NCBI RefSeq assembly: GCF_001886735.1
Contig: NZ_CP018081.1
Coordinates: forward strand, 124,001 to 188,000
Length of the DNA: 64,000 nt
Direction of reading: 5' to 3'
Origin: Sulfitobacter alexandrii
GTDB lineage: Bacteria; Pseudomonadota; Alphaproteobacteria; Rhodobacterales; Rhodobacteraceae
A program made the position numbers and the translations under genes. Positions 13,973-55,850 of the stretch are shown piece after piece (the first letter of the stretch is position 1; every line of letters starts with the position of its first letter). The notes below the pieces were generated by a model. The model had not been told where the DNA came from, ran no database searches, and saw only the letters and a program-made list of their open reading frames with translations.

Positions 13973-14002
13973 AGCCTAACAGATGTTAGAAAAATTGGTC
14001 AA
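13973..14002 (-). promoter_or_regulatory. promoter with TetR-type operator for the importer operon
   Basis: On the minus strand: -35 TTGACC (13997-14002), 18-nt spacer, -10 TAGGCT (13973-13978). An inverted repeat CCTAACA-GA-TGTTAGA lies at 13975-13990, covering the -10 and most of the spacer; only the outermost base departs from the window consensus. Binding here should block RNA polymerase. Confidence 0.7.
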
Positions 14003-14031
14003 CAACTGAATCCGCTACCAAAGGAAACCGA

Positions 14032-14871
14032 TCAGACAGCCGCGTACTCTGCGGAAAAGCTTCGAAGACCGTTTTGATCCTGACACCAGACTGTCCCGGA
14101 GGTGCCGGTCTCTTCATTGTGCAGTTGCAATTCGCAGGGCAGGGTGAGTGGCGCGAGGCCGCGGAACGAAAACCGGTGGGGCGATGTTTTCAACGCATCC
14201 GCCGCCAGATTCAGAAGCAGCGTGGCCTGCAATGGGCCATGCACAACAAGCCCGGAATAGGCTTCGGTTTCGGTGGCGTAGACGTAATCATAGTGAATGC
14301 GATGGGCATTGAACGTCAGCGCCGAATAGCGAAACAGAAGAACAGGATCCGGTGTCAGCGTCGATCTAAGCGTGGTGGGGTCACCCGCGTCAGCTGCGCT
14401 CTCGCCCGTGCGGGGGGTGGAAATCTCACGATAAACGATCGTTTGCTGCTCCCGGATACAAAGCCGGTTGCCACTCAGATACTCATGTTCGACGGTCACA
14501 AACACCAATGGTCCACTACGGCCCTGCTTGGCCACAATATCCCTGATCGAAGAGCGCCGGGTGATGGTTTCGCCGATTTTCAGCGGCGCGATATGTTTAA
14601 CATCGCCGCCGGCCCACATCCGGGCGGGCAGCGGGACAGGGGGTAGGAATCCACCCCTTGCGGCATGGCCGTCTTCTGACAGGGCGGTCGCTGGCACGGT
14701 ATCAAGGGAAATGCACCAATGAATTCCCAGCGGGACATCGCCTGATCCGTCCCAAAGATGCGGACCGAGCGTGGCGCGGAATTTGTCGATCAGCCCCTCC
14801 GTCAGAACGTCTTCTTTAGTCTCGGTGCGTCCCAGCCAGGGCGCCAGCGCGTCAAGGTCGATCTCACCCAT
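14032..14871 (-). CDS. FAS1-like/MaoC-like dehydratase (mesaconyl-C4-CoA hydratase family)
   Basis: 279 residues from ATG 14871 (MGEIDLDALAPWLGR). It is a double-hotdog protein resembling mesaconyl-C4-CoA or 3-methylfumaryl-CoA hydratases. The N-terminal hotdog has the motif FLPPVPLPARMWAGGDV. The C-terminal MaoC-type half has ALTFNAHRIHYDYVYA and LVVHGPLQATLLLNLAAD. The known family members hydrate branched C4-C5 dicarboxyl-CoA esters. Last gene of the eleven-gene operon; the dehydrogenase ends 11 nt upstream. A role in hydrating an unsaturated, possibly carboxylated, acyl-CoA made by the operon's carboxylase is plausible but inferred. Confidence 0.87.
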   Translation of the reverse strand: MGEIDLDALAPWLGRTETKEDVLTEGLIDKFRATLGPHLWDGSGDVPLGIHWCISLDTVPATALSEDGHAARGGFLPPVPLPARMWAGGDVKHIAPLKIGETITRRSSIRDIVAKQGRSGPLVFVTVEHEYLSGNRLCIREQQTIVYREISTPRTGESAADAGDPTTLRSTLTPDPVLLFRYSALTFNAHRIHYDYVYATETEAYSGLVVHGPLQATLLLNLAADALKTSPHRFSFRGLAPLTLPCELQLHNEETGTSGTVWCQDQNGLRSFSAEYAAV

Positions 14872-14882
14872 AATCCTGGCCT

Positions 14883-16046
14883 TCAGAACGATCTTGGCAT
14901 GCCGAGGATATGTTCTCCGACATATGACAGGATCAGGTTGGTCGAGATCGGGGCGACCTGATAGAGGCGCGCCTCGCGGAACTTGCGCTCGACATCGTAT
15001 TCCCGTGCGAAACCGAAGCCGCCATGGGTCTGGATGCAGGCATTGGCCGCTTCCCAGCTGGCCTCCGAAGCCAGCAGCTTGGCCATATTCGCCTGTGCTC
15101 CGCAATCCAGCCCAGCATCGAACCGCCTGCAGGCTTCAAAGCGCATCAGATTGGCGGCCTCGATGTTCACATAGGACCTGGCGATAGGGAATTGCACGCC
15201 CTGGTTCTGGCCGATGGGGCGGTCAAAGACCATGCGGTCGCCGGCATAGGTGCGGGCCTTGTCGACGAACCAGTATCCATCACCGATACATTCCGCCGCA
15301 ATCAGGGTACGTTCGGCGTTCAGCCCGTCAAGAATATGGTAAAATCCGCGCCCCTCGGTCCCGATCAGGTTCTCGGCGGGGATTTCCAGGTTGTCGAAAA
15401 ACACTTCATTGGTTTCGTGGCCGGGCATATTGGCGATGGGGCGGACCTCCATGCCGTTGCCGACCGCCTCTTTCAGATCGACCATGAAGATCGACAGGCC
15501 CTGCGATTTCTTCTTGACCTCGGCCAGCGGCGTGGTGCGTGCCAGCAGGATCATCAGGTCGGAATGCTGGATACGGCTGATCCAGACCTTCTGGCCATTG
15601 ATCTCATACCGGTCGCCCTTTTTCACCGCCGTGGTCTTCAGTTTGGTGGTGTCGGTGCCGGTGGTCGGTTCGGTCACGGCCATGGATTGCAGGCGCAATT
15701 CGCCGCTGGCGATGCCGGGCAGATATTTCTGTTTCTGCTCCTCCGAACCATGCCGCAGCAGCGTGCCCATATTGTACATCTGCCCGTGGCAATGGCCCGC
15801 GTTGCCGCCGCAGCGGTTCACCTCCTCCATGATGATCGAGGCTTCCGTCAGGCCCAGACCCGAGCCGCCGTATTCTTCTGGGATCATCGCGGCGAGCCAG
15901 CCCTCGCGGGTCAGCGCATCGACGAATTCCTCGGGGTAGGTTTCATCCTCGCCGAACTTGCGATGATATTCTGGCGGAAACTGCGCGCAAAGTGCGCGCA
16001 AGGCGTCGCGCAGATCGGTGTGAGTGTCTGGGGCTGACGTCTGCAT
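14883..16046 (-). CDS. acyl-CoA dehydrogenase
   Basis: 387 residues. All domains are present: N-terminal helical part with YPEEFVDALTREGWLAAMIPEEYGG, middle-domain VTEPTTGTDTTKLKT, and a C-terminal domain with IQTHGGFGFAREYDVERKFREARLYQ. The Glu in GLNAERTLIAAE is the likely base; the C-terminal APISTNLILSY has no acidic residue at the MCAD position. Similar to the dehydrogenase at 438-1601 throughout, so the two may be paralogues. The citrate-synthase-like gene ends 3 nt before its ATG. Confidence 0.92.
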   Translation of the reverse strand: MQTSAPDTHTDLRDALRALCAQFPPEYHRKFGEDETYPEEFVDALTREGWLAAMIPEEYGGSGLGLTEASIIMEEVNRCGGNAGHCHGQMYNMGTLLRHGSEEQKQKYLPGIASGELRLQSMAVTEPTTGTDTTKLKTTAVKKGDRYEINGQKVWISRIQHSDLMILLARTTPLAEVKKKSQGLSIFMVDLKEAVGNGMEVRPIANMPGHETNEVFFDNLEIPAENLIGTEGRGFYHILDGLNAERTLIAAECIGDGYWFVDKARTYAGDRMVFDRPIGQNQGVQFPIARSYVNIEAANLMRFEACRRFDAGLDCGAQANMAKLLASEASWEAANACIQTHGGFGFAREYDVERKFREARLYQVAPISTNLILSYVGEHILGMPRSF

Positions 16047-16049
16047 CGG

Positions 16050-16844
16050 TTACTTCGCTCCTGAACCCGACGTTTCAAGAATTTCCTGCTCGGCACGCTG
16101 CCAAAGCTCATAGGAAATCGGGTTTTCGCTCTCTTCGAGGATATGACCGACCAGACCGATGGCGCGTGCCATGACGCCAAAGCCCCGCACGATCTTCCAG
16201 GGGAAGCCAAATTCACAGCAGATTGCTCCGATCGCCCCGGTGGCGTTAATCGGCAGCATCTTACCCGATTTTTCTTCGGCAACGGCCTGAATTTTCTGGA
16301 TCAACTCGATGTATTCACCGGACTTGCCGTTCTCGGCAGCGATCTGGAACAGGCGAGGTGTGCGCGGATCGACCGGCTTGTGCACCGGATGTCCGAGCCC
16401 CGGCACGATCATCTTGCGGGCGCGGAATTTTTCCACCGTCTCGACGGCCAGCGCATCCAGATCGACACCGGTGCCCAACTTGTCCTGTGGCAGTGCCTCG
16501 TAAAGCATTTTCGAGGCACCTTCCATAGAACCGACAAAGACGGTGCCCAGCCCACACAAGCCAGCCGCCACAGCCGCCTGAAGCGATTCCGGCGCCCCCA
16601 TATAGGTCATCCGCGCCGCCAGGGCCGATGGCGTGATGCCATGTTCGACAAGGGTGATGATGATGGCGTTGAAGACGCGGCTTTCCTCGAGCGTGGCCTT
16701 GCGGCCCGTCAATTGCAGAAAGGCCAGATCGCCCAGGTTCATGTGGCCGAGGATTTCGTTCGGCAAGTCGAGCCCGCGCACGCAGATCTTGTCGGGGGTG
16801 CTCCAGGCAATGTCGGAGCTGATTTTTTCTTTGCGTTTTCCCAT
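16050..16844 (-). CDS. citrate-synthase-like protein (citryl-CoA lyase family)
   Basis: 264 residues from ATG 16844, whose A and T overlap the SDR stop (TAATG). Much shorter than citrate synthase (about 430) and similar in size to citryl-CoA lyase (Ccl). Conserved blocks of the superfamily are VEHGITPSALAAR (His274 region), GLGHPVHKPVDPR (His320 region) and a C-terminal ARAIGLVGHILEE helix. The block that normally holds the general-base Asp (NVDFYSG or NVDGAT) reads PINATGAIGA, so that Asp appears to be missing. It may cleave or condense an acyl-CoA by modified chemistry. Operon partners are an HMG-CoA lyase-like enzyme and a MaoC-like hydratase. Confidence 0.8.
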   Translation of the reverse strand: MGKRKEKISSDIAWSTPDKICVRGLDLPNEILGHMNLGDLAFLQLTGRKATLEESRVFNAIIITLVEHGITPSALAARMTYMGAPESLQAAVAAGLCGLGTVFVGSMEGASKMLYEALPQDKLGTGVDLDALAVETVEKFRARKMIVPGLGHPVHKPVDPRTPRLFQIAAENGKSGEYIELIQKIQAVAEEKSGKMLPINATGAIGAICCEFGFPWKIVRGFGVMARAIGLVGHILEESENPISYELWQRAEQEILETSGSGAK

Positions 16845-17758
16845 TAGACCGGATCCCACGAAAAGACATCCGCCGAAACTTCGAGCGGTGTGAATTGCGA
16901 TTTGAGCGCGGGAATGGCGCGCTCGGCGATTTCATCGGCGGTCCAGCCGTCACCGGAGTGGACGGACCGGAGCGGGCGGGGCTGGTTGAACAGGAATATC
17001 TCGTTCATCCGCACTGCAAAGATTTGCCCCGACACATCCGCCGCGCGGTCGCTCATCAGGTAACAGGCCATCGGCGCGACCTTGGCGGGGGTCATCTTCT
17101 TGACCTTCTCGACCCGCGCCTTCTGTTCCTCCGTGTCGGTCTTGATCGACGATATCATCCGGCTCCAGGCGAAGGGCGCGATGCAGTTTGACCGCACGTT
17201 CCAGCGTTTCAGGTCGAGCGCTACCGATTTCGAGAAGGCCGCGATGCCCAGCTTTGCCGCCGAATAATTCGCCTGCGCCAGATTGCCGATCAGCCCCGAG
17301 GTCGAGGTCATGTGCACGAGCGCGCCGCTTTCCTGTTCGCGGAAATAGTCGGCGGCCGCGCGGCTGGTATTGAAGGCACCATAAAGATGGACCTTCACCA
17401 CCGCGTCGAAATCCTCATAGGTCATCTTGTGGAAGTAACCGTCGCGCAGAATGCCGGCGTTGTTTACCACCGCGTCGATGCGACCGAATTCCTTGACCCC
17501 GGCTTCGATCATCGCGCGCGCGGCATCGGGATCGGTGACAGAGCCGCCATCGGCAATGGCATCGCCCCCAGCGGCCCTGATCTCTTCGACGACTTTCTGC
17601 GCCGCAGTTTCTGTCTGACCGGTGCCTTTCAGGGATGCGCCCAGATCATTGACCACCACGGCGGCGCCTTCGGTAGCTGCCATCAAGGCGATATCACGCC
17701 CGATCCCACCGCCGGCCCCGGTGACCAGAACGACCTTTCCGTCAAGTGCTTTTGTCAT
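16844..17758 (-). CDS. SDR-family oxidoreductase, MFE-2-type (304 aa)
   Basis: 304 residues. TGAGGGIG loop at 14-21, the conserved VVVNDLGASLKGTG of the 17beta-HSD4/multifunctional-enzyme-2 branch, NNAGILRDG, and YSAAKLG with catalytic Tyr and Lys. About 50 extra residues follow the usual SDR end (from RPLRSVHSGDGWT on), typical of this long subgroup. These enzymes oxidise 3-hydroxyacyl-CoA with NAD. Start ATG has an upstream AAGAAGATG context and lies 12 nt after the lyase gene. Confidence 0.9.
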   Translation of the reverse strand: MTKALDGKVVLVTGAGGGIGRDIALMAATEGAAVVVNDLGASLKGTGQTETAAQKVVEEIRAAGGDAIADGGSVTDPDAARAMIEAGVKEFGRIDAVVNNAGILRDGYFHKMTYEDFDAVVKVHLYGAFNTSRAAADYFREQESGALVHMTSTSGLIGNLAQANYSAAKLGIAAFSKSVALDLKRWNVRSNCIAPFAWSRMISSIKTDTEEQKARVEKVKKMTPAKVAPMACYLMSDRAADVSGQIFAVRMNEIFLFNQPRPLRSVHSGDGWTADEIAERAIPALKSQFTPLEVSADVFSWDPV

Positions 17759-17770
17759 CTTCTTGCTCCC

Positions 17771-18730
17771 TCAGCGTGACTTGCGGTATTTGTCCAACCC
17801 GCCGGTGTGCATGACCCGGCCCATGAGCGGCACACCGATGATCTCTTCTGCTTTGACCGCCGCTGCGATCAGCTTGTCCAGATCAATGCCGGTTTCGATG
17901 CCGAGCTCGTGACACAGGAACACTGCATCCTCGGTGCAGACATTTCCTGCGGCGCGCGCGTGGCCGTGGCCCGCGAAAGGACAGCCGCCAAGACCGGCGA
18001 CGGAGCTTTCGAACATGTCCACGCCCATCGACAGGGCCGCATAAACGTTGGCGATCCCCAGCCCACGTGTGTCATGGATGTGCATACCGATGCGCGCCTC
18101 GGGCGCCAATTCGCGCAGGGCGCCGATCATCCGTTTGACCGCCTCGGGGTTTCCCCAACCCATGGTGTCGGCGACCACGAGGATCGGCACGGGGATGTTC
18201 TCTTCTTCGCATAGCTGAAGGATAAAGCGGAAATCGTCCAAGATGCGTTCTTGGGGGATGGGGCCCTCGAGGTTGCAGCCGAAAGCGGTCATCACATAGG
18301 CCGCGTCGACGGTATATCCCTCTTCCTTGTAAAGACGGACCCAGTCACGTTGTTTTTCCCGCATCTCGGCCGAGGAACAATTGTTGTTCGATTGGGCGAA
18401 TGCTTCGGAAGGATAGAACAGCAGACGCGGGTCGATATCGACCTCATGCGCGGTCAGGGCCTTGCGAAACCCTTTGTCGTTCAGCCACAGCGATGTGTAG
18501 TTCACGCCCGGTTTGCGCTTGATACGCTGGAACAACTCGCCGGTGTCCGCCATCTGAGGAACGTATTTCGGGCTGACAAAGCTGCCGACCTGAATGCGTT
18601 TCAAGCCGGTTTCGCTGAGCATGTCGATCAGTTCGATCCGCTCTTCGATCGGGTAAATCTTCTTTTCGATCTGAAAACCCTCACGCGGGCCTTCTTCACG
18701 AAATTCTACGAATTTGGGAAAGTCGCTCAT
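17771..18730 (-). CDS. HMG-CoA lyase-like aldolase
   Basis: 319 residues from ATG 18730 (GAGGAG 9 nt upstream). HMGL/DRE-TIM barrel: REGPREGFQ (the usual GPRDGLQ metal/catalytic loop), AFGCNLEG, ADTMGWGNP, HIHDTRGLGIAN and the C-terminal catalytic-cysteine signature GLGGCPFAGHGHARAAGNVCTED. The normal signature has GCPYAPGASGN; the GHGHARA insert is a divergence near the active site. HMG-CoA lyase splits 3-hydroxy-3-methylglutaryl-CoA into acetyl-CoA and acetoacetate. With the carboxylase pair directly upstream (4 nt), a leucine/isovalerate-like or isoprenoid-like lower pathway is suggested, but the altered loop could mean a longer or different substrate. Confidence 0.88.
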   Translation of the reverse strand: MSDFPKFVEFREEGPREGFQIEKKIYPIEERIELIDMLSETGLKRIQVGSFVSPKYVPQMADTGELFQRIKRKPGVNYTSLWLNDKGFRKALTAHEVDIDPRLLFYPSEAFAQSNNNCSSAEMREKQRDWVRLYKEEGYTVDAAYVMTAFGCNLEGPIPQERILDDFRFILQLCEEENIPVPILVVADTMGWGNPEAVKRMIGALRELAPEARIGMHIHDTRGLGIANVYAALSMGVDMFESSVAGLGGCPFAGHGHARAAGNVCTEDAVFLCHELGIETGIDLDKLIAAAVKAEEIIGVPLMGRVMHTGGLDKYRKSR

Positions 18731-18734
18731 TTCA

Positions 18735-20741
18735 TCACTCCTCGGATGGCAGGATCTCGGCGATGACCTGGCCGCGATCGACCATGTCCCCATTCGAGAC
18801 GGATATATTGCTGGCGATCCCGGCCGCGGCCGCCCGGATCGAGATTTCGAGTTTCATGGATTCCATGACCGCGACCACGTCGCCTTCGGCCACGCTCTGA
18901 CCGTCGGAGACCTTGATTTCGACAATCATGCCGGTCAGCGGAGAGGTCACGGCGCGATCCGCCGCGGCATCGCCGCCGGCAAAGGCAAGGGGCGCGGCGG
19001 GCCGAAAGACCAGGCGGCCTTCGGGCGTATCCAGTTCGATCACGCCCGCGTGCAGGCGCGCGTCGATCAGATGGACGGTGTCGCCTTCGCCGACACGCCA
19101 ACGGCCCGGGGTCAGTTCACGTGCCGACAGTATCAGCGCCTCGCCTTTCTCCGAACGGATGGTGTACTTGGCACCCGGTTTGACAGGACTGACGCGCAGT
19201 TCTTCGGATACCTCGTCAGAATCGGTAAGCGTCACGCGCTGCCCCGCTTCAATCGCATCGCCGCCCAGTCCAAGCCGCCAGCCGGTAAAGGCATCACGGT
19301 TGGTCCAGGGATTGGCGTCTGTGTCGCTGCGCGACTGGGTCACGAAGAGAATGGCAGCGGTCGCCTTCCACAGATCTGGGCGGGTCAGGCCGGGTGCCTG
19401 TGTCAGCTCATCCAGCCTGCCGTCGATCCAGCGGGTATGCACCTGCATCCGTTCGAATTCATGGTTTCGCGCCAGCGCCGTCAGAAAGGCGCGATTGGTT
19501 TCGACACCTTCGACCGCGACATGATCAAGCGCCGTGGCTAGACGTGCCAATGCGGTTTCCCGGTCGGGCGCGTGCACGATCAGCTTGGCGATCATCGGGT
19601 CGTAGTAGGGCGTGACGGCATCGCCTTCTTCGACGCCGCTGTCGATGCGCAGGCCCGATGGCAGGCTGAGCGTGGAGAGCGTGCCCGTCGACGGGGCGAA
19701 TTGCATCGCCGGATCTTCGGCGTAAAGCCGCGCCTCGACCGCGTGGCCGTTGATCGTCAGATCGTCCTGCACCAGTCCAAGGCCCGCGCCTTCGGCAATC
19801 CGCAGGTGAAGCGCGACAAGGTCCAGCCCGGTGATCGCTTCGGTGACGGGATGTTCCACCTGAATGCGCGGGTTCACCTCAAGGAAGAAATACTCGCCAC
19901 CCGCGACCAGAAATTCGACCGTGCCCAGCCCGCGATAGTCCAGCGTTTCGCCCAAGCGCACCGCGTCGCGTGCGATGTCGTCCAGAAGCGTTCGGGGCAG
20001 ACCCCAGGCCGGGGCTTCCTCGATGACCTTCTGGTGGCGGCGCTGAAGCGTGCAATCGCGTTCGAACAGATGCACCACATGGCCCTTGCCGTCACCTGCG
20101 ATCTGCACTTCAACATGGCGCGCCTCGGGCAGGAAACGCTCCAACAGCAGCCCTTCGGAGCCGAAGGTGGATTTTGCTTCGCGCAGCGCGCCTTCGATGT
20201 CCTCGACCAGCGTGGTCTCGTCAGTGACGAGCCGTTGTCCGCGCCCACCACCGCCGCCGACCGCCTTGAGCAGCACCGGCAGGCCCATTTGGCGCACCTC
20301 CTCGGCAATCTGCTCGGGATCGGACCGCGCACCTTCGGCGCCCGAAATCACCGGGACGCTGGCCGCCACGGCGGCCTCTTTGGCGCTGGCCTTGTCGCCG
20401 AAACGTTCAAGCGTTTCCGGCGTCGGCCCCATGAAGATCATGCCGGCGGCTTCGACCGAACGAGCAAAATCGGGGTTTTCGGCCAGAAAGCCATAACCGG
20501 GATGGATCGCATCCGCGCCCACTGATTGCGCAGCGGCAATCACCGCGTCGATTTTCAGATAGCTCTGGGATGCAGGTCCGGCGCCGATACAGACAGATTT
20601 GCCAATCTCGCGGACATGCAGGGCATTGACGTCGGCCTGCGAATGCACGCCGACGGGAATGATACCGCTTGCCCGCGCAGTGCGCGCGATCCGGCAGGCA
20701 ATTTCGCCGCGGTTGGCGATCAGAAGCGTCTTGATTTTCAC
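18735..20741 (-). CDS. acyl-CoA carboxylase alpha subunit (biotin carboxylase + biotin carrier), set A
   Basis: 668 residues. Biotin carboxylase domain (1-450) with IANRGEIACRIART, HPGYGFLAENPDF, the Gly-rich ATP-grasp loop KAVGGGGGRG, and the EVNPRIQVEHPVTE active-site segment. A BT-like middle region follows. The C-terminal biotinyl domain has the biotinylation motif VMESMKLE with Lys630. Length and order match MccA/LiuD, AtuF and PccA alpha subunits. It carboxylates biotin for the beta subunit encoded 10 nt upstream. Of the known families, MCC or geranyl-CoA carboxylase fits best because of the neighbouring HMG-CoA lyase. Confidence 0.94.
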   Translation of the reverse strand: MKIKTLLIANRGEIACRIARTARASGIIPVGVHSQADVNALHVREIGKSVCIGAGPASQSYLKIDAVIAAAQSVGADAIHPGYGFLAENPDFARSVEAAGMIFMGPTPETLERFGDKASAKEAAVAASVPVISGAEGARSDPEQIAEEVRQMGLPVLLKAVGGGGGRGQRLVTDETTLVEDIEGALREAKSTFGSEGLLLERFLPEARHVEVQIAGDGKGHVVHLFERDCTLQRRHQKVIEEAPAWGLPRTLLDDIARDAVRLGETLDYRGLGTVEFLVAGGEYFFLEVNPRIQVEHPVTEAITGLDLVALHLRIAEGAGLGLVQDDLTINGHAVEARLYAEDPAMQFAPSTGTLSTLSLPSGLRIDSGVEEGDAVTPYYDPMIAKLIVHAPDRETALARLATALDHVAVEGVETNRAFLTALARNHEFERMQVHTRWIDGRLDELTQAPGLTRPDLWKATAAILFVTQSRSDTDANPWTNRDAFTGWRLGLGGDAIEAGQRVTLTDSDEVSEELRVSPVKPGAKYTIRSEKGEALILSARELTPGRWRVGEGDTVHLIDARLHAGVIELDTPEGRLVFRPAAPLAFAGGDAAADRAVTSPLTGMIVEIKVSDGQSVAEGDVVAVMESMKLEISIRAAAAGIASNISVSNGDMVDRGQVIAEILPSEE

Positions 20742-20751
20742 GGTTCGCTCC

Positions 20752-23747: not shown

Positions 23748-23774
23748 GTCGTTCTCCGTTCCAAGCCGTGGCGA

Positions 23775-24935: not shown

Positions 24936-24944
24936 GTTTCGTCC

Positions 24945-29031: not shown

Positions 29032-29057
29032 ACCGAGGCTCGGGCAAGGGGGAAACT

Positions 29058-39114: not shown

Positions 39115-39120
39115 AGCGTT

Positions 39121-42239: not shown

Positions 42240-42251
42240 GCGATCTTTCCT

Positions 42252-43902: not shown

Positions 43903-43913
43903 GTTCCGCCCCC

Positions 43914-45113: not shown

Positions 45114-45126
45114 TGTCTCGTCCCCC

Positions 45127-46372: not shown

Positions 46373-46409
46373 TTGACCAAAATCAAACACATGTTAGAAA
46401 ATAGATCAA
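46373..46409. promoter_or_regulatory. divergent overlapping promoters with shared operator
   Basis: Operator TCAAACA-CA-TGTTAGA at 46383-46398 (one mismatch to consensus). Minus strand: -35 TTGATC (46404-46409), 17 nt, -10 TTGATT (46381-46386). Plus strand: -35 TTGACC (46373-46378), 16 nt, -10 TAGAAA (46395-46400). The operator lies inside both core promoters, so one bound repressor would block both operons. Confidence 0.72.
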
Positions 46410-47260: not shown

Positions 47261-47281
47261 TCAAACGGGGAGGAGAGGAAT

Positions 47282-49081
47282 ATGTCGGAACGCAAGCTGC
47301 GCATCGGATGCGCGTCGGGCTTCTGGGGCGATACGCCGGAAGCGATCGGTCAACTGGTCTCAAAGGGCGAGATCGACTATCTGGTGTTTGACTATCTGGC
47401 AGAGGTGACAATGTCGCTGATGGCGCGGGCCCGCGCCAAAGCGCCCGAGACGGGCTATGCGCCGGACTTCGTCAAGGCGCTGGCACCCTGGTTGCCGGAT
47501 ATCAAGGCAAAAGGGATCAAGGTCGTTGCCAATGCAGGGGGCGTGAACCCGCGTGGCTGCAGCGATGCGCTTGCCAAAGCCGCCGCCCAGGCCGGGATCG
47601 ATCTGTCCATCGGAGTCGTGCTAGGCGATGACCTGTTGCCCAGGGCCGATGAAATTCGCAAAAACGGTCAGACGGAAATGTTCTCGGGTGTCGCATTTCC
47701 AGATGATATCTGGAGCATGAATGCCTATCTGGGTGCCCGCCCCATCGCTGCCGCGCTGGATGCCGGGGCCGACATCGTGATCACCGGACGCTGCGCCGAC
47801 AGCGCGGTCGCGCTTGGTCCCCTGATGCATGAATACGGCTGGGGCGACGATGACTGGGACAAGCTCAGCCAGGGATCGCTGGCCGGCCACCTGATCGAAT
47901 GCGGCCCCCAGGGAACCGGCGGCAACTTCACCGACTGGCAGGACGTGCCGGGTTGGGACAATATGGGCATGCCCATCGTCGAGGCGTCCGAAGACGGCAG
48001 TTTCATCATGACCAAGACGCCTGACACCGGCGGGCTGGTCGTGCCCGGGTCAGTCGGAGAGCAGATGCTCTATGAAATCGGGGATCCGCGCGCCTACCTG
48101 TTGCCCGACGTGATCTGCGACTGGTCCGGGGTCACCCTGGAGCAGGTCGGACCCGATCAGGTGCTGGTCAAGGGCGGCAGGGGGCTTGGGCGCACCGACA
48201 GCTACAAGGTGTCGGCGACCCATGCCGATGGCTGGCGCGCGGTCTCTACCCTGACACTGGCCGCGATTGATGCACCCGCCAAGGCCGAACGTGTGGCCGA
48301 GGCGATCCTGACCCGCTGTCGCCGGATTTTCCGCGACCGCAACATGGGCGATTTTCGGCAGGTCAGCGTCGAGGTGCTGGGGGCCGAGGCGGCCTATGGC
48401 GCAAATGCGCGCGCCCGAACCCGCGAGGTGGTGCTCAAGATCGGCGCGGTCCATGACGATCGCGCCGCGCTGAACATCTTTGCCGGCGAAATAGCACCGA
48501 TGGCGATTTCGACCGCGCAGGGTCTGACCGGGTTCTTCGCCGGACGGCCCAAGGTGCAACCGGTGGTCCGCCTGTTCTCCTTCCTTCAGAGCAAGGCCGA
48601 GACCCCCGTCGCGGTCGAGGTCGACGGCAAGGATGTGCCCGTGAGCGTGGCCACTACGCCAGTCCACCTTGATCCACCTGCCGCACCGCCCGCAGATAGC
48701 CGCGAGCCCGGCCCGGACGCTGTCAAGGTCCGCCTCGTCGATCTGGCCTGGGGCCGCTCGGGCGACAAGGGGGACATCGCCAATATCGGCATCCTCGCGC
48801 GCAAGCCGGACTACCTGCCATATATCCGCTCGGCTCTCAGCGAAGAGGTGGTGAAGGACTATTTCGCCCATGTCTGCGACGGCAGGGTAGAACGGTTCGA
48901 CTTGCCTGGAAGCCATTCGCTGAATTTCCTGTTGCATGAATCGCTTGGCGGTGGCGGCATCGCCTCGGTTCGCATAGACCCGCAGGGCAAAGGGTTCGCG
49001 CAGATGCTGCTTGATATCGAAATTCCCGTGCCAGCCGATCTGGCTGCACGTGACGGACTGAATGCCGCGGCCCGGAACTAA
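47282..49081 (+). CDS. AtuA-family protein (DUF1446) with fused C-terminal AtuA-like domain
   Basis: 599 residues, GGGGAGGAG before the ATG. The N-terminal DUF1446 domain (1-450) contains RIGCASGFWGDTPEA, VVANAGGVNPRGC and DIVITGRCADSAVALGPL. The C-terminal domain (from about 480, VRLVDLAWGRSGDKGDIANI) is the AtuA-like ferredoxin-fold domain that in many species is a separate small protein. AtuA is the first gene of the acyclic terpene utilisation (citronellol/geraniol) cluster of Pseudomonas, and its biochemical role is still unclear. Here it lies between a hydratase and a carboxylase, the same company as in Atu clusters. This is the strongest pointer to isoprenoid-like substrates. Confidence 0.9.
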   Translation: MSERKLRIGCASGFWGDTPEAIGQLVSKGEIDYLVFDYLAEVTMSLMARARAKAPETGYAPDFVKALAPWLPDIKAKGIKVVANAGGVNPRGCSDALAKAAAQAGIDLSIGVVLGDDLLPRADEIRKNGQTEMFSGVAFPDDIWSMNAYLGARPIAAALDAGADIVITGRCADSAVALGPLMHEYGWGDDDWDKLSQGSLAGHLIECGPQGTGGNFTDWQDVPGWDNMGMPIVEASEDGSFIMTKTPDTGGLVVPGSVGEQMLYEIGDPRAYLLPDVICDWSGVTLEQVGPDQVLVKGGRGLGRTDSYKVSATHADGWRAVSTLTLAAIDAPAKAERVAEAILTRCRRIFRDRNMGDFRQVSVEVLGAEAAYGANARARTREVVLKIGAVHDDRAALNIFAGEIAPMAISTAQGLTGFFAGRPKVQPVVRLFSFLQSKAETPVAVEVDGKDVPVSVATTPVHLDPPAAPPADSREPGPDAVKVRLVDLAWGRSGDKGDIANIGILARKPDYLPYIRSALSEEVVKDYFAHVCDGRVERFDLPGSHSLNFLLHESLGGGGIASVRIDPQGKGFAQMLLDIEIPVPADLAARDGLNAAARN

Positions 49082-49093
49082 GAGGACGACACC

Positions 49094-50563
49094 ATGACCA
49101 TTTCGAAACTCCTGGTCGCCAATCGGGGCGAGATCGCGGCGCGCGTGTTGCGCACCGCCAAGGCCCGCGGGCTTGCGACGGCCGTGTTGCGTCATGTCGC
49201 CGAGCAAGAGGGGCCGGCGCATCTGATCGCAGATGAGGTCGTGATGATCGACGGCCCGACGCCCGTGGCCGCCTATCTCGATATTCCGCAGATCGTCGCG
49301 GCGGCAACAAAGATCGGCGCGGATGCGGTGCATCCCGGCTATGGCTTTCTGTCAGAGAATGCCGGTTTTGTCGCGGCGCTGGAAAAAGCCGGAGTGACCT
49401 TTGTCGGCCCGACGTCCGAGGTCATCGACCTGATGGGGGACAAGGTCCGCGCCCGCGCCTTTGTCGAGGAACACGGGTTTCCCGTCGCCCCCTCGGCGAT
49501 CGAGGATGATGATCCGGCGAGCTTTGTCGAACGCGCCCGCGCCGTGGGCTATCCGCTGCTGATCAAACCCTCGGCCGGCGGTGGCGGCAAGGGCATGCGC
49601 GTTGTGCGCGAGGACAGCACGCTGGAAACCGAAATCGAAACCGCGCGCCGCGAAGGCGAACGATATTTCGGCGACGGGCGGCTTTTCGTCGAACGCTATA
49701 TCGAACGCCCGCGCCATATCGAGGTGCAGGTGATGGGCGACGGACAGGGCAACGTGGTCCATTTCTGGGAACGTGAATGTTCGATCCAGCGCCGGTTCCA
49801 GAAGATTATCGAGGAAACGCCGTCACCGGCGCTGACCCCCGAGCAACGGGATGAGATCTGCGAGACCGCTGCCGGAATTGCCCGTGCCGTCAAATACCGC
49901 GGGGCAGGGACCGTTGAATTCATCTATGCGCAGGACGGGGCCTTTTATTTCCTGGAAATGAACACCCGCCTTCAGGTCGAACATCCGGTGACCGAACTGG
50001 TGACCGGCTTCGATCTGGTTGCCGAGCAGCTGCGTGTCGCGGCGGGCGACGGGCTGAGCGCCGTGCAGGCGGATATTCCCCAAACCGGACACTCGATCGA
50101 ACTGCGCATCTGCGCCGAGGACGCGACGGCCGATTTCCGGCCCGCGATCGGCGATATCCTGCTGCTGGACGAACCCCAGGGCGAGGGGATCCGCGTGGAC
50201 AGCGGCATTCTGGATGGCGGCAAGGTGACAACCGACTTCGACCCGATGTTGTCCAAGCTGATCGTACATGGCCCGGATCGCGCGCAGGCCATCGCCCGTG
50301 CCCGGAGCGCGGTGCAAAGCTATGTGATTCTCGGGGTAACGACCAACACTGGTTACCTGGATGCAATCCTTGCACATCCGGATTTCGCCTCTGGTGACGT
50401 TTCAACTGGCTTCCTGGCTGAACAATCCGAAACGCTGACCGCGCCGGGCGAAGATGTCTCTGACTTGCTGATAGCGGCGGCGGCCCTATCGGACGAGCGC
50501 CTGGTGAGTGACGTAATGCAGATACCGGAAATGTACCGCAAGATGGGCGGGTGGAGAAACTGA
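49094..50563 (+). CDS. biotin carboxylase subunit, set B (no fused biotin carrier)
   Basis: 489 residues. LLVANRGEIAARVLRTAK, HPGYGFLSENAGFVAAL, KPSAGGGGKGMRVV ATP-grasp loop, EMNTRLQVEHPVTEL and the C-terminal biotin carboxylase domain with DPMLSKLIVHGPDR. It ends MYRKMGGWRN at a TGA that overlaps the start of the biotin-carrier gene (TGATG). In the related alpha subunits of sets A and C these two parts are one polypeptide of about 668 residues. Confidence 0.93.
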   Translation: MTISKLLVANRGEIAARVLRTAKARGLATAVLRHVAEQEGPAHLIADEVVMIDGPTPVAAYLDIPQIVAAATKIGADAVHPGYGFLSENAGFVAALEKAGVTFVGPTSEVIDLMGDKVRARAFVEEHGFPVAPSAIEDDDPASFVERARAVGYPLLIKPSAGGGGKGMRVVREDSTLETEIETARREGERYFGDGRLFVERYIERPRHIEVQVMGDGQGNVVHFWERECSIQRRFQKIIEETPSPALTPEQRDEICETAAGIARAVKYRGAGTVEFIYAQDGAFYFLEMNTRLQVEHPVTELVTGFDLVAEQLRVAAGDGLSAVQADIPQTGHSIELRICAEDATADFRPAIGDILLLDEPQGEGIRVDSGILDGGKVTTDFDPMLSKLIVHGPDRAQAIARARSAVQSYVILGVTTNTGYLDAILAHPDFASGDVSTGFLAEQSETLTAPGEDVSDLLIAAAALSDERLVSDVMQIPEMYRKMGGWRN

Positions 50564-51066
50564 TGCAACGGATTTTTCAGATCGACGGAGAAGAGACTGA
50601 TTGCTGGTTGGGTCATGATGGCAGCCGGTTCGTGCTCAATACCCCCACTGGCGCTGTTACCTGCCAATTGGACCCGACGGGTCTGCCGGGCGGTTACAAG
50701 CTGCGGGCCAAGGGTGTTGTGCGCGAATTGCGACTGGCCGTGGGGCCGGAAGCAACTTTTGTGCACATGGACGGGCGAACCTACGAAGTCGGGCGGGTTG
50801 ATCCCGCCGAACGCCTGGCCGGAAGCGACGGTGGCGCGAGCGACGACCGATTGGTGGCGCCCATGCCGGGTGTCGTGGTGTCGGTTGCGGTTAAACCCGG
50901 CGATGCGGTTGAAGAAGGCCAGCCGCTTCTGGTGATCGAAAGCATGAAGTTGGAAACCACACTGACGGCGCCGCGCGGCGGGGTCGTTGCCGAAATGCCA
51001 TTCGCCGAAGGCGACAGTTTTGGTCTGAAAGACATCCTGGCCCAATTGGCCCCGGAGGAGGAGTGA
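50563..51066 (+). CDS. biotin carrier (biotinyl domain) subunit, set B
   Basis: 167 residues from ATG 50563 (GGTGGAG upstream, overlapping the previous stop); GTG 50551 is an alternative. The first 90 residues form the linker/BT-type region, and the biotinyl domain begins at LVAPMPGVVVSVAVKPGD. Biotinylation motif VIESMKLE with Lys129. It carries carboxybiotin between the biotin carboxylase (upstream) and carboxyltransferase (downstream). Confidence 0.92.
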   Translation: MQRIFQIDGEETDCWLGHDGSRFVLNTPTGAVTCQLDPTGLPGGYKLRAKGVVRELRLAVGPEATFVHMDGRTYEVGRVDPAERLAGSDGGASDDRLVAPMPGVVVSVAVKPGDAVEEGQPLLVIESMKLETTLTAPRGGVVAEMPFAEGDSFGLKDILAQLAPEEE

Positions 51067-51068
51067 CA

Positions 51069-52676
51069 ATGCGCAGGATTGAAAGTCAGATCGACACCAA
51101 TGCCGCCGACTACAAGGCAAATTTCGCCGCCATGTCTGAACGGCTGAAGGAATTCCACGCCCGCCAGCACGCGGCGCGTTTCGAACGTCCGCAACGCGAT
51201 ATCGACCGCCTTGCCCGCCAGAACAAACTGGGCGTGCGCGAGCGGTTGAAACTGCTGCTGGACCCCGGCACTCCGTTTTTGGAGTTTTCCACACTTGCCG
51301 CCTGTCGCGAATACGATGGCACCGTGCCTGGCGCCGCTGTGGTGACGGGCATCGGTATTGTGCAGGGTCGCGAGGTCGCCATCCACGCCAACGACGCTAG
51401 CGTCAAGGGCGGGGCTTGGTATCCACATACGGTCAAAAAGGTCGTGCGTCTTCTGGATGTCGCGCTGGAAAACCGCCTGCCGGTCATCCATATCTGCGAC
51501 AGCGCGGGCGGTTTCCTGCCGCTGCAGCACGGGGTGTTTCCCGACCGGTATCTGGGCGGGCGGGTGTTCCGCAACCAGGTCAAGCTGAGCCAGGCCAATA
51601 TCCCGCAGATTGCCGTGGTCGGCGGACACTGCACGGCTGGCGGTGCCTATGTGCCGACGCTGAGCGACTACAACATCATCATCGAAGGCACAGGCGCGAT
51701 TTTCCTTGGCGGTCCCCCGCTGGTCAAGGCGGCCACCGGCGAAGAGGTCGGTGTTCAGGAACTTGGTGGGGCGGTTATGCATACCTCGGTTTCGGGAACC
51801 GGCGACTACCGAGCCGCCACTGAACAGCACGCCTTTTCACTGGCGCGCGAGATTGTCAGCCAATGGAAGCGCACCCCGAAAACGATCATCGAAACCGCCG
51901 CTTTTGAAGAGCCGTACTACGACCCCAAGGAGCTTTATGGGATCATCCCCAAGGACCGGAAAACCCAGTTTGATATGCGCGAGGTTCTGGCGCGGATCGT
52001 CGATGGCTCGCGCTTTCACGAATACCAGCCCGACTATGGCACCACGATGGTTTGCGGCTTTGCCCATATCTGGGGTTACAAGGTTGGCATCCTTGCCAAC
52101 AACGGGGTGTTGTTCAACGACAGCTCGCTGAAGGCGGCGCATTTCATGCAGCTTTGCAATCAGAACCGCACACCTCTGGTCTTCTTTCAGAACATCACTG
52201 GCTATATGGTGGGCCGCGAATACGAAGAACGCGGCATCGCCAAGGACGGTGCCAAGATGCTGATGGCGCAGGGCGGTTCGGTCGTGCCGAAGTTCACAGT
52301 GATCGCCAATGCCTCGTACGGGGCAGGCAATTACGGCATGTGCGGGCGGGCCTGGGATGCGCGCACGCTGTTTATGTGGCCGCAAGCCGAGATCGGCGTG
52401 ATGGGGGCGGATCAGGCCGCTAATACCATGGCGGACGTCAAGATTCGGCAGCTTCAGCGCGAAGGCAAAGAGCTGACCGAAGAAGAAATCGCCGCGATCC
52501 GCGAACCGGTGCTGGAAAAATACAAGCGCGATGTCGAAGCCTATACCTCCACCTCGGAACTGTGGGATGACGGCATCCTCGATCCGGCGGACACACGCAA
52601 CGCGCTTGGCATGTCGATTTCTGCCTCGCTCAATGCACCGATCGACGATCCGCACTACGGGATCTTCCGTCTGTAA
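51069..52676 (+). CDS. acyl-CoA carboxylase beta subunit (carboxyltransferase), set B
   Basis: 535 residues from ATG 51069 (GGAGGAG upstream). N half: RERLKLLLDPGTPFLEFSTL and VGGHCTAGGAYVPTLSDY; C half: ITGYMVGREYEERGIAKDGAKM and NASYGAGNYGMCGRAWDAR. MccB/AtuC/LiuB type. Beside AtuA, a geranyl-CoA-carboxylase-like role is plausible. No sequence rule to separate MCC from GCC was applied with certainty: the known Gly/Phe selector in the beta subunit would need alignment. Confidence 0.93.
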   Translation: MRRIESQIDTNAADYKANFAAMSERLKEFHARQHAARFERPQRDIDRLARQNKLGVRERLKLLLDPGTPFLEFSTLAACREYDGTVPGAAVVTGIGIVQGREVAIHANDASVKGGAWYPHTVKKVVRLLDVALENRLPVIHICDSAGGFLPLQHGVFPDRYLGGRVFRNQVKLSQANIPQIAVVGGHCTAGGAYVPTLSDYNIIIEGTGAIFLGGPPLVKAATGEEVGVQELGGAVMHTSVSGTGDYRAATEQHAFSLAREIVSQWKRTPKTIIETAAFEEPYYDPKELYGIIPKDRKTQFDMREVLARIVDGSRFHEYQPDYGTTMVCGFAHIWGYKVGILANNGVLFNDSSLKAAHFMQLCNQNRTPLVFFQNITGYMVGREYEERGIAKDGAKMLMAQGGSVVPKFTVIANASYGAGNYGMCGRAWDARTLFMWPQAEIGVMGADQAANTMADVKIRQLQREGKELTEEEIAAIREPVLEKYKRDVEAYTSTSELWDDGILDPADTRNALGMSISASLNAPIDDPHYGIFRL

Positions 52677-52759: not shown

Positions 52760-52794
52760 GTCCTGACCGGTCCGGTTCCCGGACAGGTCAGGAC
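52760..52794. terminator. hairpin between convergent carboxylase and paaY-like genes
   Basis: Arms GTCCTGACCGGTCCGG and CCGGACAGGTCAGGAC pair over 16 bp with one mismatch around a 3-nt loop. It overlaps the last codons of the PaaY-like gene and lies 84 nt after the carboxylase gene; a bidirectional terminator is likely. Confidence 0.6.
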
Positions 52795-53399
52795 GATGTC
52801 CGCCGCGCCTCCTGAATGGAGACGACGTCAGAGGCCGCCATGCCGGGCCGGTCTGCCTCGACCGCCTTCAGCGGTTCGACCGGCGTCAATCCGGCCAGAC
52901 AGTCGCGCGCAAGTTGCTGGTATTCCGCGGTGCCGCGCGTTTTCCACGCGACTTCTTTCTCGCTGACCTCGCGGATCACCTTTGCCGGCGATCCCACCAC
53001 CATCGAACGCGGCGGAATCACGGTTTCGCCACGCACAAACGCCTGCGCGCCGACAATCGATTCCGCCCCAAGCTCTACACCATCCATAATGACGGAATTC
53101 ATTCCGACCAGAGCGTTCCGGCCCACTGTGCAACCGTGCAGGATCGCGCCATGGCCGATGTGGCCGTCGCTTTCCACCACGGCGTCGCGGCCGGGAAAGG
53201 AATGGATGATGCAATTGTCCTGAACATTGGCTCCATCCCCGATCACGATCCTGCCGAAATCGCCCCGCAAGCTTGCTCCGGGGCCGATGTAGCATCCATG
53301 ACCCAAGATGACATTTCCGATCAGAACGGCCTGGGGGTGGACATATGTATCCTCGGGCACGACGGGTATAAAACCCTTGAACTCATAACAGTATGCCAT
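52788..53399 (-). CDS. PaaY-like hexapeptide-repeat protein (gamma-carbonic-anhydrase fold)
   Basis: 203 residues from ATG 53399 (AAAGGTGG upstream). Left-handed beta-helix: successive hexapeptide turns from [14 protein letters not shown] to [14 protein letters not shown], with His residues at [12 protein letters not shown] that would bind metal between subunits, then a C-terminal helix. PaaY is a broad CoA-thioesterase that clears dead-end CoA esters in phenylacetate degradation; CaiE is similar. It is divergent from the thiolase operon and has its own operator-overlapped promoter. Confidence 0.88.
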
Positions 53400-53498: not shown

Positions 53499-53527
53499 AA
53501 ACAAACACAAGTTAGAAAATAGCGCAA
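53499..53527 (-). promoter_or_regulatory. promoter of the paaY-like gene with degenerate operator
   Basis: Minus strand -35 TTGCGC (53522-53527), 17 nt, -10 TTGTTT (53499-53504). The inverted repeat ACAAACA-CA-AGTTAGA (53501-53516) is a weak version of the window consensus but has the same placement relative to the promoter as the copies at 26945 and 46383. Confidence 0.5.
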
Positions 53528-53553: not shown

Positions 53554-53598
53554 TTGACACTTCCCAAGGTTGGGATTTAAAATCTAACAAATGGTAGA
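53554..53598 (+). promoter_or_regulatory. sigma70 promoter plus operator of the thiolase operon
   Basis: -35 TTGACA (53554-53559, perfect), 18-nt spacer, -10 TAAAAT (53578-53583). The operator TCTAACA-AA-TGGTAGA (53583-53598, one mismatch) begins at the end of the -10 and covers the expected transcription start. It is the best promoter in the window and shows directly how a repressor on this site would act. Confidence 0.78.
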
Positions 53599-53652
53599 AA
53601 ATAGGCTGGCGGACCGATTAGGGTGGCCTGACCGAACTTGGGAGAGAGAGAA

Positions 53653-54837
53653 ATGACAGACAAAGCCTATGTTGCAGGCGTTGGGATGGTCCCGTTCCAG
53701 AAGCCGGGAAAATCCGAAAGCTACGATGTGATGGCGACCGCTGCGACCCGGTCCGCTCTGGCAGACGCAGGGTTGGATTATGATAAAGTCCAACAGGCCT
53801 ATGTTGGCTATGTCTATGGCGACAGCACCTGCGGTCAGCGCGCCCTGTACCATGTCGGAATGACAGGCATCCCGGTTCTGAATGTGAACAACAACTGCTC
53901 GACCGGATCGTCCGCCCTGTTCCTGGCCAGGCAGGCAGTTGAAAGCGGCGCGGTCGAATGTGCTCTGGCACTTGGGTTCGAACAGATGCAGCCCGGCGCA
54001 ATCGGTGCGATGTTCCATGACCGGGTCAGCCCGTTTGCGGCATTCGACAGAGAAACCGACGAACTGGTTGGCAGTGCCGAGATCCCGCTGGCGCTGCGGT
54101 ACTTCGGCGGTGCGGGCAAGGCGCATATGGACGAGTTCGGCACCCCCCTGGAAACCTTCGCAAAAATCCGCGCCAAGGCCAGCCGACATGCTGCGAAGAA
54201 TCCGGTTGCCCTGTTCCGGCAGGAGGTGACGGCGGAAGACGTCATGGCCGCCCAGGTCGTCTGGCCCGGCGTCATGACCAAGCTCATGGCCTGTCCGCCA
54301 ACCTGTGGCGCGGCCGCCGCGATCATTTGTTCCAAGGAATTCGCCGACAAGCACGGACTGGACAGTTCGGTTCGGATCGCGGCGCAGGCCATGACGACGG
54401 ACGGCCCGGAAACTTTCGAAGCCCATGACATGCGCGAAGTGGTCGGCTTTTCGATGGCCAAGCGCGCCGCCGATCAGGTTTACGAGGACGCGGGCATCGG
54501 GCCCGAGGACGTGGATGTGGTCGAACTGCACGACTGTTTCGCCCACAACGAGCTTATCACCTATGAGGCGCTTGGCCTTTGCAGTCGCGGCGAAGCGGCG
54601 AAATTCGTTGATGATGGCGACAACACCTACGGCGGAAAATACGTGACCAACCCGTCGGGCGGTCTTTTGTCCAAAGGCCATCCGCTTGGGGCGACCGGCC
54701 TAGCGCAATGTACCGAGCTCGTTCAGCAGCTTCGCGGCCAGGCAGATGCGCGCCAGGTTGATGGCGCACGTCTGGCGCTTCAGCACAATCTGGGCCTCGG
54801 CGGGGCCTGCGTCACCACGCTTTATGAAAAAGCCTGA
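53653..54837 (+). CDS. thiolase-family protein (SCP-x type)
   Basis: 394 residues from ATG 53653 (GGAGAGAGAG upstream). VNNNCSTGSSALFLA with the nucleophilic Cys, ELHDCFAHNELITYEALGLC and NPSGGLLSKGHPLGATG with catalytic His. Like the protein at 2869, it belongs to the SCP-x/3-ketoacyl thiolase branch that handles branched or bulky chains, but the two are clearly different sequences. First gene of a two-gene operon ended by a strong hairpin. Confidence 0.92.
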   Translation: MTDKAYVAGVGMVPFQKPGKSESYDVMATAATRSALADAGLDYDKVQQAYVGYVYGDSTCGQRALYHVGMTGIPVLNVNNNCSTGSSALFLARQAVESGAVECALALGFEQMQPGAIGAMFHDRVSPFAAFDRETDELVGSAEIPLALRYFGGAGKAHMDEFGTPLETFAKIRAKASRHAAKNPVALFRQEVTAEDVMAAQVVWPGVMTKLMACPPTCGAAAAIICSKEFADKHGLDSSVRIAAQAMTTDGPETFEAHDMREVVGFSMAKRAADQVYEDAGIGPEDVDVVELHDCFAHNELITYEALGLCSRGEAAKFVDDGDNTYGGKYVTNPSGGLLSKGHPLGATGLAQCTELVQQLRGQADARQVDGARLALQHNLGLGGACVTTLYEKA

Positions 54838-54861
54838 TAGCGCCTTTCGGGAGGAATCAAT

Positions 54862-55692
54862 ATGACTGGAAAACTCGACGGGCGCGTGGCGCTGGTCTCG
54901 GGCTCGGGCCGGGGCATTGGCCGCGAAATCGCTCTCAAACTGGCCTCGGAAGGGGCCCGGCTGGTGATCAACGATCTGGACGCCGATCCGGCCAATGAAA
55001 CCGCCGAGGCGGTGCGCGCAATGGGTGCTGAGGCCGTGGTCTGTGCCGGCAGCGTTACCGAAGACGGTTTTGCCGAACGGTTCATCAAGACCGGCGTGGA
55101 CAGCTTTGGCGGGTTAGACATCATCGTGAACAACGCAGGCTACACTTGGGATAGCGTCGTTCAGAAGATGTCCGACGAACAGTGGCAGGCGATCATCGAC
55201 GTCCACCTGACGGCACCTTTCAAGATCCTGCGCGCTGCCCAGCCGGTGATCAGCGCCAAGGCCAAGGAAGAGGCCGCCGCCGGGCAAGAGGTGTTCCGCA
55301 AGGTAGTCAACATCTCGTCCATCGCAGGGACCGGCGGCAATGCTGGCCAGATCAACTATTCCGCCGCCAAGGCCGGTATCCTAGGGGTCACCCGGACGAT
55401 GGCCAAGGAATGGGGCCGCTACAAGGTCAACGTCAACGCCGTCGCCTTCGGCCCGATCCGCACCCGCCTGACCGAAGGCAGCGCGGATGGCGACAGCACG
55501 ATCAAGGTCGAAGAAAAAGAGATCAAGGTCGGCGTGAACCCCGATCTCCTGTCCCAGATGGAGCGCATGATCCCGCTGGGCCGGGTCGGCACTCCGGAAG
55601 AAGCTGCCGGTGCCGTCTATCTGTTCTGTGCGCCGGAATCGAACTTCATTTCAGGCCAGCACGTCATCTGCGGTGGCGGTTTCGTGATCTAA
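54862..55692 (+). CDS. SDR-family oxidoreductase
   Basis: 276 residues, GGGAGGA before the ATG. SGSGRGIG loop near 13-20, NDLDAD after strand 2 (NAD preference), NNAGYTWDS, catalytic YSAAKAG, and an insert around EEKEIKVGVNPDLLSQM before the end GQHVICGGGF. FabG-like 3-hydroxyacyl-CoA dehydrogenase supplying the thiolase encoded 24 nt upstream. Confidence 0.9.
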   Translation: MTGKLDGRVALVSGSGRGIGREIALKLASEGARLVINDLDADPANETAEAVRAMGAEAVVCAGSVTEDGFAERFIKTGVDSFGGLDIIVNNAGYTWDSVVQKMSDEQWQAIIDVHLTAPFKILRAAQPVISAKAKEEAAAGQEVFRKVVNISSIAGTGGNAGQINYSAAKAGILGVTRTMAKEWGRYKVNVNAVAFGPIRTRLTEGSADGDSTIKVEEKEIKVGVNPDLLSQMERMIPLGRVGTPEEAAGAVYLFCAPESNFISGQHVICGGGFVI

Positions 55693-55697
55693 GGCAT

Positions 55698-55728
55698 TTG
55701 CCCGGACCCGATGACGGGGTCCGGGCAA
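55698..55728 (+). terminator. hairpin terminator of the thiolase-SDR operon
   Basis: Perfect 12-bp stem TTGCCCGGACCC/GGGTCCGGGCAA with a 7-nt loop, 6 nt after the stop codon. No long T-run follows, but position and stem strength indicate the operon end. Confidence 0.7.
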
Positions 55729-55809
55729 GCACATTAATGTCTGGACGGCCTCTTGGCGGTCGCCAATGCGGAATTTTCCGCAAACTCTAGTCTGGCACGA
55801 TCACGACGA

Positions 55810-55850
55810 TTGACTCACTTGCGTTGTTAACCTAACAGGCGTTAGTTAGG
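55810..55850 (+). promoter_or_regulatory. promoter and operator of the TetR-carboxylase-bioY operon
   Basis: -35 TTGACT (55810-55815), 17 nt, weak -10 TAACAG (55833-55838). The inverted repeat CCTAACA-GG-CGTTAGT (55831-55846) covers the -10; outer arms CCTAAC and GTTAGG (55831-55836, 55845-55850) form a second, wider palindrome. Autoregulation by the TetR gene that follows is likely. Confidence 0.62.

Follow-up and report, generated by a model that had tools for sequence, protein, structure and literature searches.

The DNA considered here is a stretch of 64,000 nucleotides from Sulfitobacter alexandrii (contig NZ_CP018081.1, positions 124,001 to 188,000; hereafter ‘the window’), in which copies of a 16-base palindrome, TCTAACA-N2-TGTTAGA, lie before genes of coenzyme A (CoA) thioester metabolism and before two genes of one TetR subfamily. 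One of these regulators is a single chain with two complete TetR units (‘double TetR’) and the other a protein of 209 amino acids (‘single TetR’). A sequence-only reading of the window had used the palindrome to tie seven promoter regions into one local regulon and had proposed that one or both TetR genes encode the repressor. We scanned for the pattern by mismatch count (up to three) rather than with a weight matrix, using the reversed pattern as a control, and recovered all seven proposed copies at the coordinates given for them. Dinucleotide shuffles led us to expect 0.36 copies, gave a maximum of three, and never reached seven. The sites and the two regulator genes are as follows, with SDR denoting short-chain dehydrogenase/reductase and ECH enoyl-CoA hydratase.

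13975..13990: operator CCTAACAGATGTTAGA, one mismatch, before the importer operon (minus strand)
26945..26960: perfect operator, between the 11-gene carboxylase/acyl-CoA operon (minus strand) and an OYE/FadH-family flavoenzyme gene (plus strand)
39949..39964: perfect operator, between an SDR gene (minus strand) and the double-TetR gene (plus strand)
40010..41374, plus strand: double TetR, the proposed repressor, 454 amino acids from MVHK, with an alternative ATG start at 39974
46383..46398: operator TCAAACACATGTTAGA, one mismatch, between an acyl-CoA dehydrogenase operon (minus strand) and an ECH-AtuA-carboxylase operon (plus strand)
53501..53516: degenerate operator ACAAACACAAGTTAGA, three mismatches, before a PaaY-like gene (minus strand) and paired with the next copy, 82 bp apart
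53583..53598: operator TCTAACAAATGGTAGA, one mismatch, before an SCP-x-type thiolase/SDR operon (plus strand)
55831..55846: operator variant CCTAACAGGCGTTAGT, three mismatches, 26 bases before the single-TetR start codon, single TetR being the first gene of the carboxylase-BioY operon (plus strand)
55873..56502, plus strand: single TetR, 209 amino acids, of the same subfamily as double TetR

All seven copies are intergenic, as had been claimed. For the sites at 13975, 26945, 39949, and 46383, this rests on gene starts transferred from the annotation of the syntenic NZ_CP045373.1, a plasmid of Sulfitobacter sp. THAF37 that is 96.6% identical to the window over 14.0–30.5 kb and whose annotation serves to about 51 kb; for those at 53501, 53583, and 55831, which are outside the syntenic stretch, it rests on the ends of open reading frames (ORFs) and family matches. 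The first 6 kb and the segment from 30.6 to 39.0 kb hold no copy at up to three mismatches, again as proposed. The counterpart of the degenerate 53501 site in Phaeobacter sp. G2 has two mismatches.

A whole-genome scan, which the sequence-only reading had put forward as a check, bore it out. The genome (G000; 4,418,693 bases, 29 contigs) has ten sites with at most two mismatches (four perfect, three with one, and three with two), and all of them fall on the contig that carries the window, C7, which at 206,954 bases makes up 4.7% of the genome; they lie near acyl-CoA and TetR genes, with one before a gene for an IclR-type regulator. Allowing three mismatches gives 37 sites genome-wide vs 66 for the reversed pattern, so three-mismatch matches by themselves mean nothing outside the plasmid. 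C7 holds 13 sites with zero to three mismatches, the seven of the window and six outside it (C7:126515, 131238, 172282, 175943, 179544, and 192146). The latter adjoin genes for the IclR-type regulator, CoA transferases, a CoA-ligase-like protein, a transglutaminase-like protein, a ChsH2-type OB-fold protein, and an SDR, and an acyl-CoA dehydrogenase-like ORF (C7:178347-179504, so termed because it matches the stretch that the acyl-CoA dehydrogenase of the window also matches, and not from the family library). The proposal of a co-regulated set is supported, with its probable extent revised from a local group of seven promoters to a plasmid-wide one. C7 encodes a VirD4-like coupling protein, a TrbE/VirB4-like protein, a T2SSE-type ATPase, a ParA-like protein, and RepB; because transfer and partition genes are present, it is most likely a conjugative plasmid. 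When positions 63782-64000 of the window are set against C7, 171 positions differ overall; the first shared 30-mer begins 219 bases in, with few differences beyond it.

The gene following the perfect operator at 39949 had been described as a ‘tandem TetR’. It encodes one chain with two complete TetR units: TetR_N matches twice (128.7 bits for both stretches together), as does TetR_C_24, and the two halves are 41% identical to each other. The predicted model is almost all-helical, and the family matches and the model together give the TetR_N helix-turn-helix and all-helical ligand domain that mark the TetR family, while at the level of sequence the palindromic operator overlaps the promoter of the double-TetR gene itself. 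In four plasmid records (L024, L125, L126, and L127), double TetR is annotated from a methionine 42 residues downstream of MVHK, and this methionine falls within the first helix-turn-helix. Judging by conservation, translation more likely begins at MVHK or upstream of it.

The distribution of the palindrome ties it to double TetR. A scan of one genome per species returned 125 relatives of double TetR, of which the best 80 loci were analysed. In 78 of these 80, whose protein identity ranges from 52 to 100%, an operator with no more than two mismatches precedes the start of the match by 10 to 108 bases, and the 80 loci together hold 188 such sites vs 2 for the reversed pattern. Among 149 family genomes, G000 and G138 have five copies each of the strict pattern TCTAACNNNNGTTAGA and G044 and G061 have four each, whereas five genomes have one and the remaining 140 none; double TetR (E <=1e-40, with up to 11 candidates scored per genome) is present in exactly those four. 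By our own arithmetic, the chance of this coincidence is about 5e-8, for a two-copy threshold that was picked after the counts had been seen. Plasmid records give the same picture: from 68 with a match, 11 carrying the gene were picked for variety (Pseudosulfitobacter pseudonitzschiae being included once of many), and each has 8–11 sites, a total of 105 vs 5 for the reversed control, whereas three further records of the 68, from Polaromonas, Cupriavidus, and Rhodococcus, which have distant relatives only, have none at up to two mismatches.

The site persists when its surroundings change. In G061, double TetR is 55% identical and the gene order differs, yet operators precede homologues of the thiolase, of double TetR, and of the genes at C7:171548, 175995, and 191250, and a pair of sites 78 bp apart lies between the SDR and thiolase homologues, comparable with the pair 82 bp apart in the window. 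The same site thus recurs, above chance, before functionally related operons and is kept across species. By these comparisons, double TetR and the palindromic operator are inherited together. Plasmids from Roseobacter-group, Paracoccus, and Roseibium strains carry the system, which also has relatives in Bradyrhizobium and Marinobacter.

That the copies are non-functional, conserved just through recent sharing of a plasmid segment, could be argued from the many loci that are >90% identical in plasmid DNA and protein. We give this account hardly any credence: after loci with flanks at least 85% alike had been removed, the 30 remaining non-redundant double-TetR promoters have 1.80 bits per position in the operator arms compared with 0.54 in the centre and 0.55 and 0.70 in the flanks, and sites persist at 52–58% protein identity and after the change in gene order. 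It is also improbable, though less so, that the palindrome serves an unrelated global regulator or sigma factor of which the TetR genes are mere targets. Lists of targets cannot name the binder, and the IclR-type gene of the plasmid is itself preceded by a site; but 145 of the 149 family genomes, which are without double TetR, hold no strict copy or one, and the operators are kept when the system occurs in another class, in Marinobacter, so that the binder seems to travel with the system.

The placement of the copies points to how such a protein would act. Four minus-strand promoters had been proposed with a TTG-containing -35 element and a spacer of 17 or 18 nucleotides; this holds well at 13975 (TTGACC, 18 nucleotides, TAGGCT) and 26945 (TTGATC, 17 nucleotides, TAGATT) and less well at 46383 and 53501. 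The 39949 copy has a minus-strand spacing of 16; here a plus-strand promoter (TTGATT, 17 nucleotides, TATTCT) suits the double-TetR gene better, and 23 of 30 double-TetR relatives have a TTGATT no more than 32 bases upstream of the operator. Over the 13 contig sites, a TTG stands 9–13 bases before the operator at 12, or in 17 of 26 site orientations, compared with a local background of 0.022 per position, the distance range having been picked after the promoters were inspected. At these promoters, the operator's last four bases often double as the first four of a -10 element resembling TAGATT or TAGAAA. A uniform overlap with the -10 element at each copy, as first described, did not hold up, the operator being at or just behind this element at 53583 and 55831. 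With the operator between a TTG-type -35 and the -10 element, a protein bound there would block RNA polymerase, and repression by the operator-bound protein is the natural inference.

A number of observations weigh against assigning the palindrome to double TetR. Two of the 80 best loci are without an upstream operator: L087 breaks off at the end of its contig, and L098 (Acidocella) is a genuine miss, the 1,000 bases upstream containing no site at up to five mismatches. Whole-genome counts at up to two mismatches fall below those of the reversed pattern in Marinobacter (7 vs 22) and Bradyrhizobium (10 vs 29), the reversed control also hits two or three copies in 9 of the 149 family genomes (none among the four positives), and one G061 site, in L140, precedes a gene without a counterpart site on C7. 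Single TetR, which is 39% identical to the second half of double TetR and 34% to the first, occurs in all four positive genomes but G061, which has relatives 38–39% identical, and on 9 of the 11 double-TetR plasmids. Finally, in G430 a half-length TetR adjoins an ECH ORF with a perfect operator 12 bases upstream of the ORF start (L110, operator at 592-607 and TetR at 1471-2211), so the fusion is not needed for this operator. The operator may predate the TetR fusion, and the G430 protein is possibly an unfused relative of the system.

These last points bear on the rival that deserves the most attention, in which a homodimer of single TetR is the main repressor, with double TetR minor or modulating, or in which both share all sites. 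A core-palindrome copy precedes single TetR in eight plasmid records, in G044 and G138, and in Marinobacter, the recognition-helix letters of single TetR are the same as those of the first half of double TetR, and the G430 locus sets a half-length TetR beside an operator-bearing gene. We nevertheless regard this rival as unlikely. The plasmid records W07 (Sulfitobacter pontiacus) and W08 (P. pseudonitzschiae) contain ten sites apiece, but at E <=1e-15 neither record has a single-TetR relative, just the two halves of double TetR; and G061 has four strict copies, with its best single-TetR relative only 38% identical. From the original proposal that one or both TetR genes act as repressors, double TetR emerges as favoured, and their equal candidacy falls away because of the two plasmid records, although single TetR may have a share in the control. 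An exclusion of single TetR by co-occurrence was given up: at E 1e-40, with up to 11 candidates per genome, it seemed confined to G000 and G138, but G044 has a 75% relative, and the argument was retained for G061 only.

The outer base of the operator likewise speaks against single TetR as the general repressor by suggesting a separate specificity. In a search that did not require it, the copy before single TetR starts with C and not T in the window, in G138 and G044, in L134 (Sulfitobacter BSw21498), and in Marinobacter; an outer C precedes single-TetR relatives in L114, L115, L134, and L180. A pattern requiring the C, applied to nine plasmid records (a set without W03 and W08), found a copy directly before single TetR in eight (seven ending in GTTAGT and one in GTTAGG); the ninth, W07, is without single TetR. 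Before double TetR, the outer base is T in 29 of the 30 promoters. These patterns suggest a paralog-specific outer base pair, C for single TetR and T for double TetR. C-type copies also occur elsewhere with the C-requiring pattern, for example before the importer, so the C is not confined to single TetR. In a tree of the TetR proteins, from which the single TetRs of L163 and L173 were omitted for want of a suitable frame and in which several rows are cut at an arbitrary start, long branches make the placement of the single TetRs unsure. A further single TetR in L134 (9441-10094) adjoins a cobalamin-dependent acyl-CoA mutase set; the operator was not found in the 160 bases upstream of it.

Taken together, we consider it likely that the palindrome is the operator of double TetR, in a joint reading that includes a built-in dimer, blocked promoters, and probable release by an acyl-CoA. 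The two TetR units would fold together, each of the two nearly identical recognition helices reading one half-site. Covering the region from -35 to -10, the bound protein would shut off some ten plasmid promoters besides its own until it is released, probably by an acyl-CoA intermediate of the pathway. Release would then jointly induce the importer, the ligases, the dehydrogenases, three biotin-dependent carboxylases, the biotin transporter, and the double-TetR gene.

The candidate controlled units in the window are as follows, with BCCP denoting biotin carboxyl carrier protein.

6956..13876, minus strand: branched-chain-type ABC importer operon with AMP-binding ligase
14032..26902, minus strand: 11-gene operon, start transferred from syntenic annotation
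27031..30578, plus strand: OYE/FadH-family flavoenzyme and AMP-binding ligase, start transferred from syntenic annotation
39121..39882, minus strand: SDR, the BadH-like gene of the sequence-only reading
41356..46341, minus strand: operon of two acyl-CoA dehydrogenases, SDR, ECH, and two thioesterases
46475..52676, plus strand: operon of ECH, AtuA-family protein, biotin carboxylase, BCCP, and carboxyltransferase
52788..53390, minus strand: PaaY-like protein (290.8 bits vs a cut-off of 319.6), start estimated from the family match
53653..55692, plus strand: SCP-x type thiolase (PRK08256, above its cut-off) and SDR
56438..62688, plus strand: carboxyltransferase, ECH, biotin carboxylase, acyl-CoA dehydrogenase, and BioY

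The 11-gene operon encodes acyl-CoA dehydrogenases, ECH, a ligase, a biotin-dependent carboxylase, HMG-CoA lyase, SDR, citryl-CoA lyase, and MaoC; its first gene scores 521.6 bits against TIGR03207 (cyclohexanecarboxyl-CoA dehydrogenase), below the cut-off of 575. The putative controlled genes include three biotin-dependent carboxylase sets, which the biotin transporter BioY fits. The pathway would break down a methyl-branched or alicyclic, perhaps isoprenoid, acid via CoA esters. This substrate class, like double-TetR binding, repression, and the acyl-CoA inducer, is what we infer from the genes and sites.

Two known systems offer comparisons. Mce3R of Mycobacterium tuberculosis is reported to be a repressor with two TetR-family regulator (TFR) units and a 25-bp asymmetric, nonpalindromic operator (structure 9b7y; PMC11667970). 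The predicted fold of double TetR matches Mce3R over most of its length, with 17% identity in the structural alignment, and the two share an arrangement of two TFR units in one polypeptide forming one omega-shaped TFR fold, here predicted. Unlike the 25-bp asymmetric site of the actinobacterial protein, the operator here is a near-perfect 16-bp palindrome in many copies; given its symmetric arms, we group double TetR with the double TFRs but not as an Mce3R. AtuR of Pseudomonas is the TetR repressor of acyclic terpene utilization (PMC4847356, PMC3511530). Like the targets of AtuR, those proposed here would serve the breakdown of CoA thioesters and include a biotin-dependent carboxylase and, in one of the operons, an AtuA-family gene; the AtuR system has the atuABCDEFGH operon as its neighbour, whereas the AtuA-family gene here is not beside double TetR. 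AtuR was set aside as a name for the regulator; a search of the Marinobacter order (up to four candidates scored per genome; see below) gave one-unit matches only outside Marinobacter itself. AtuR reportedly has two 13-bp inverted repeats between atuA and atuR, according to the title of a 2010 paper. Each half of double TetR resembles KstR2, PfmR, FadR, AibR, and DarR in sequence or predicted fold; these are single-unit chains that act as homodimers, whereas double TetR has two units. Literature searches on the motif, a fused TetR, and the plasmid module returned just the Mce3R and AtuR work as relevant, part of them being swamped by unrelated words, so that they are weak evidence of absence; passages of PMC9025767, PMC5064897, and PMC9044938 do not describe the regulon.

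Beyond the alphaproteobacteria, Marinobacter aromaticivorans (G540; L087, L160, and L180) has a double TetR of 76% identity, truncated at a contig end, and a single TetR of 80% identity that has an operator. The occurrence in this gammaproteobacterium suggests that the system was transferred between bacterial classes. Among 390 genomes of the Marinobacter order (up to four candidates scored per genome), double TetR was found in Marinobacter alone, with one-unit matches elsewhere; 15 of 20 one-unit loci lack a site at up to three mismatches, and weak resemblance to the operator was seen in L171 (489-504, two mismatches) and in L167, L168, L169, and L175 (three mismatches). A phylum-level search of 398 genomes, with few candidates scored per genome, gave no further double TetR. 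L137 (Rhodococcus sp. DK17 plasmid pDK3) encodes a 30% identical double TetR beside genes for HMG-CoA lyase, acyl-CoA dehydrogenase, CaiB, and MaoC; this operator was not found in the record at up to two mismatches. L137 is a possible actinobacterial counterpart.

The genes of this large catabolic module, found on plasmids of marine Roseobacter-group bacteria, have so far been annotated singly and just as acyl-CoA enzymes; the module now gains a proposed regulator and operator. The operator provides a tag with which the whole pathway may be delimited, and expression from it a handle on the growth substrate. Beside the asymmetric structure of Mce3R, double-TetR repressors would then include a type whose operator is symmetric, and the idea of a single-chain dimer thereby becomes directly testable. 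More tentatively, as a proposal that we would not yet call probable, the system may be a self-contained, transferable regulon in which a natural single-chain pseudo-dimer, the product of one ancient duplication and fusion, reads perfect palindromes and a paralogous TetR reads an outer-base sub-type, giving two-tier control. If this is true, one TetR chain, with no need to pair with a second, would be enough to repress a dozen operons of a conjugative plasmid that enters a cell.

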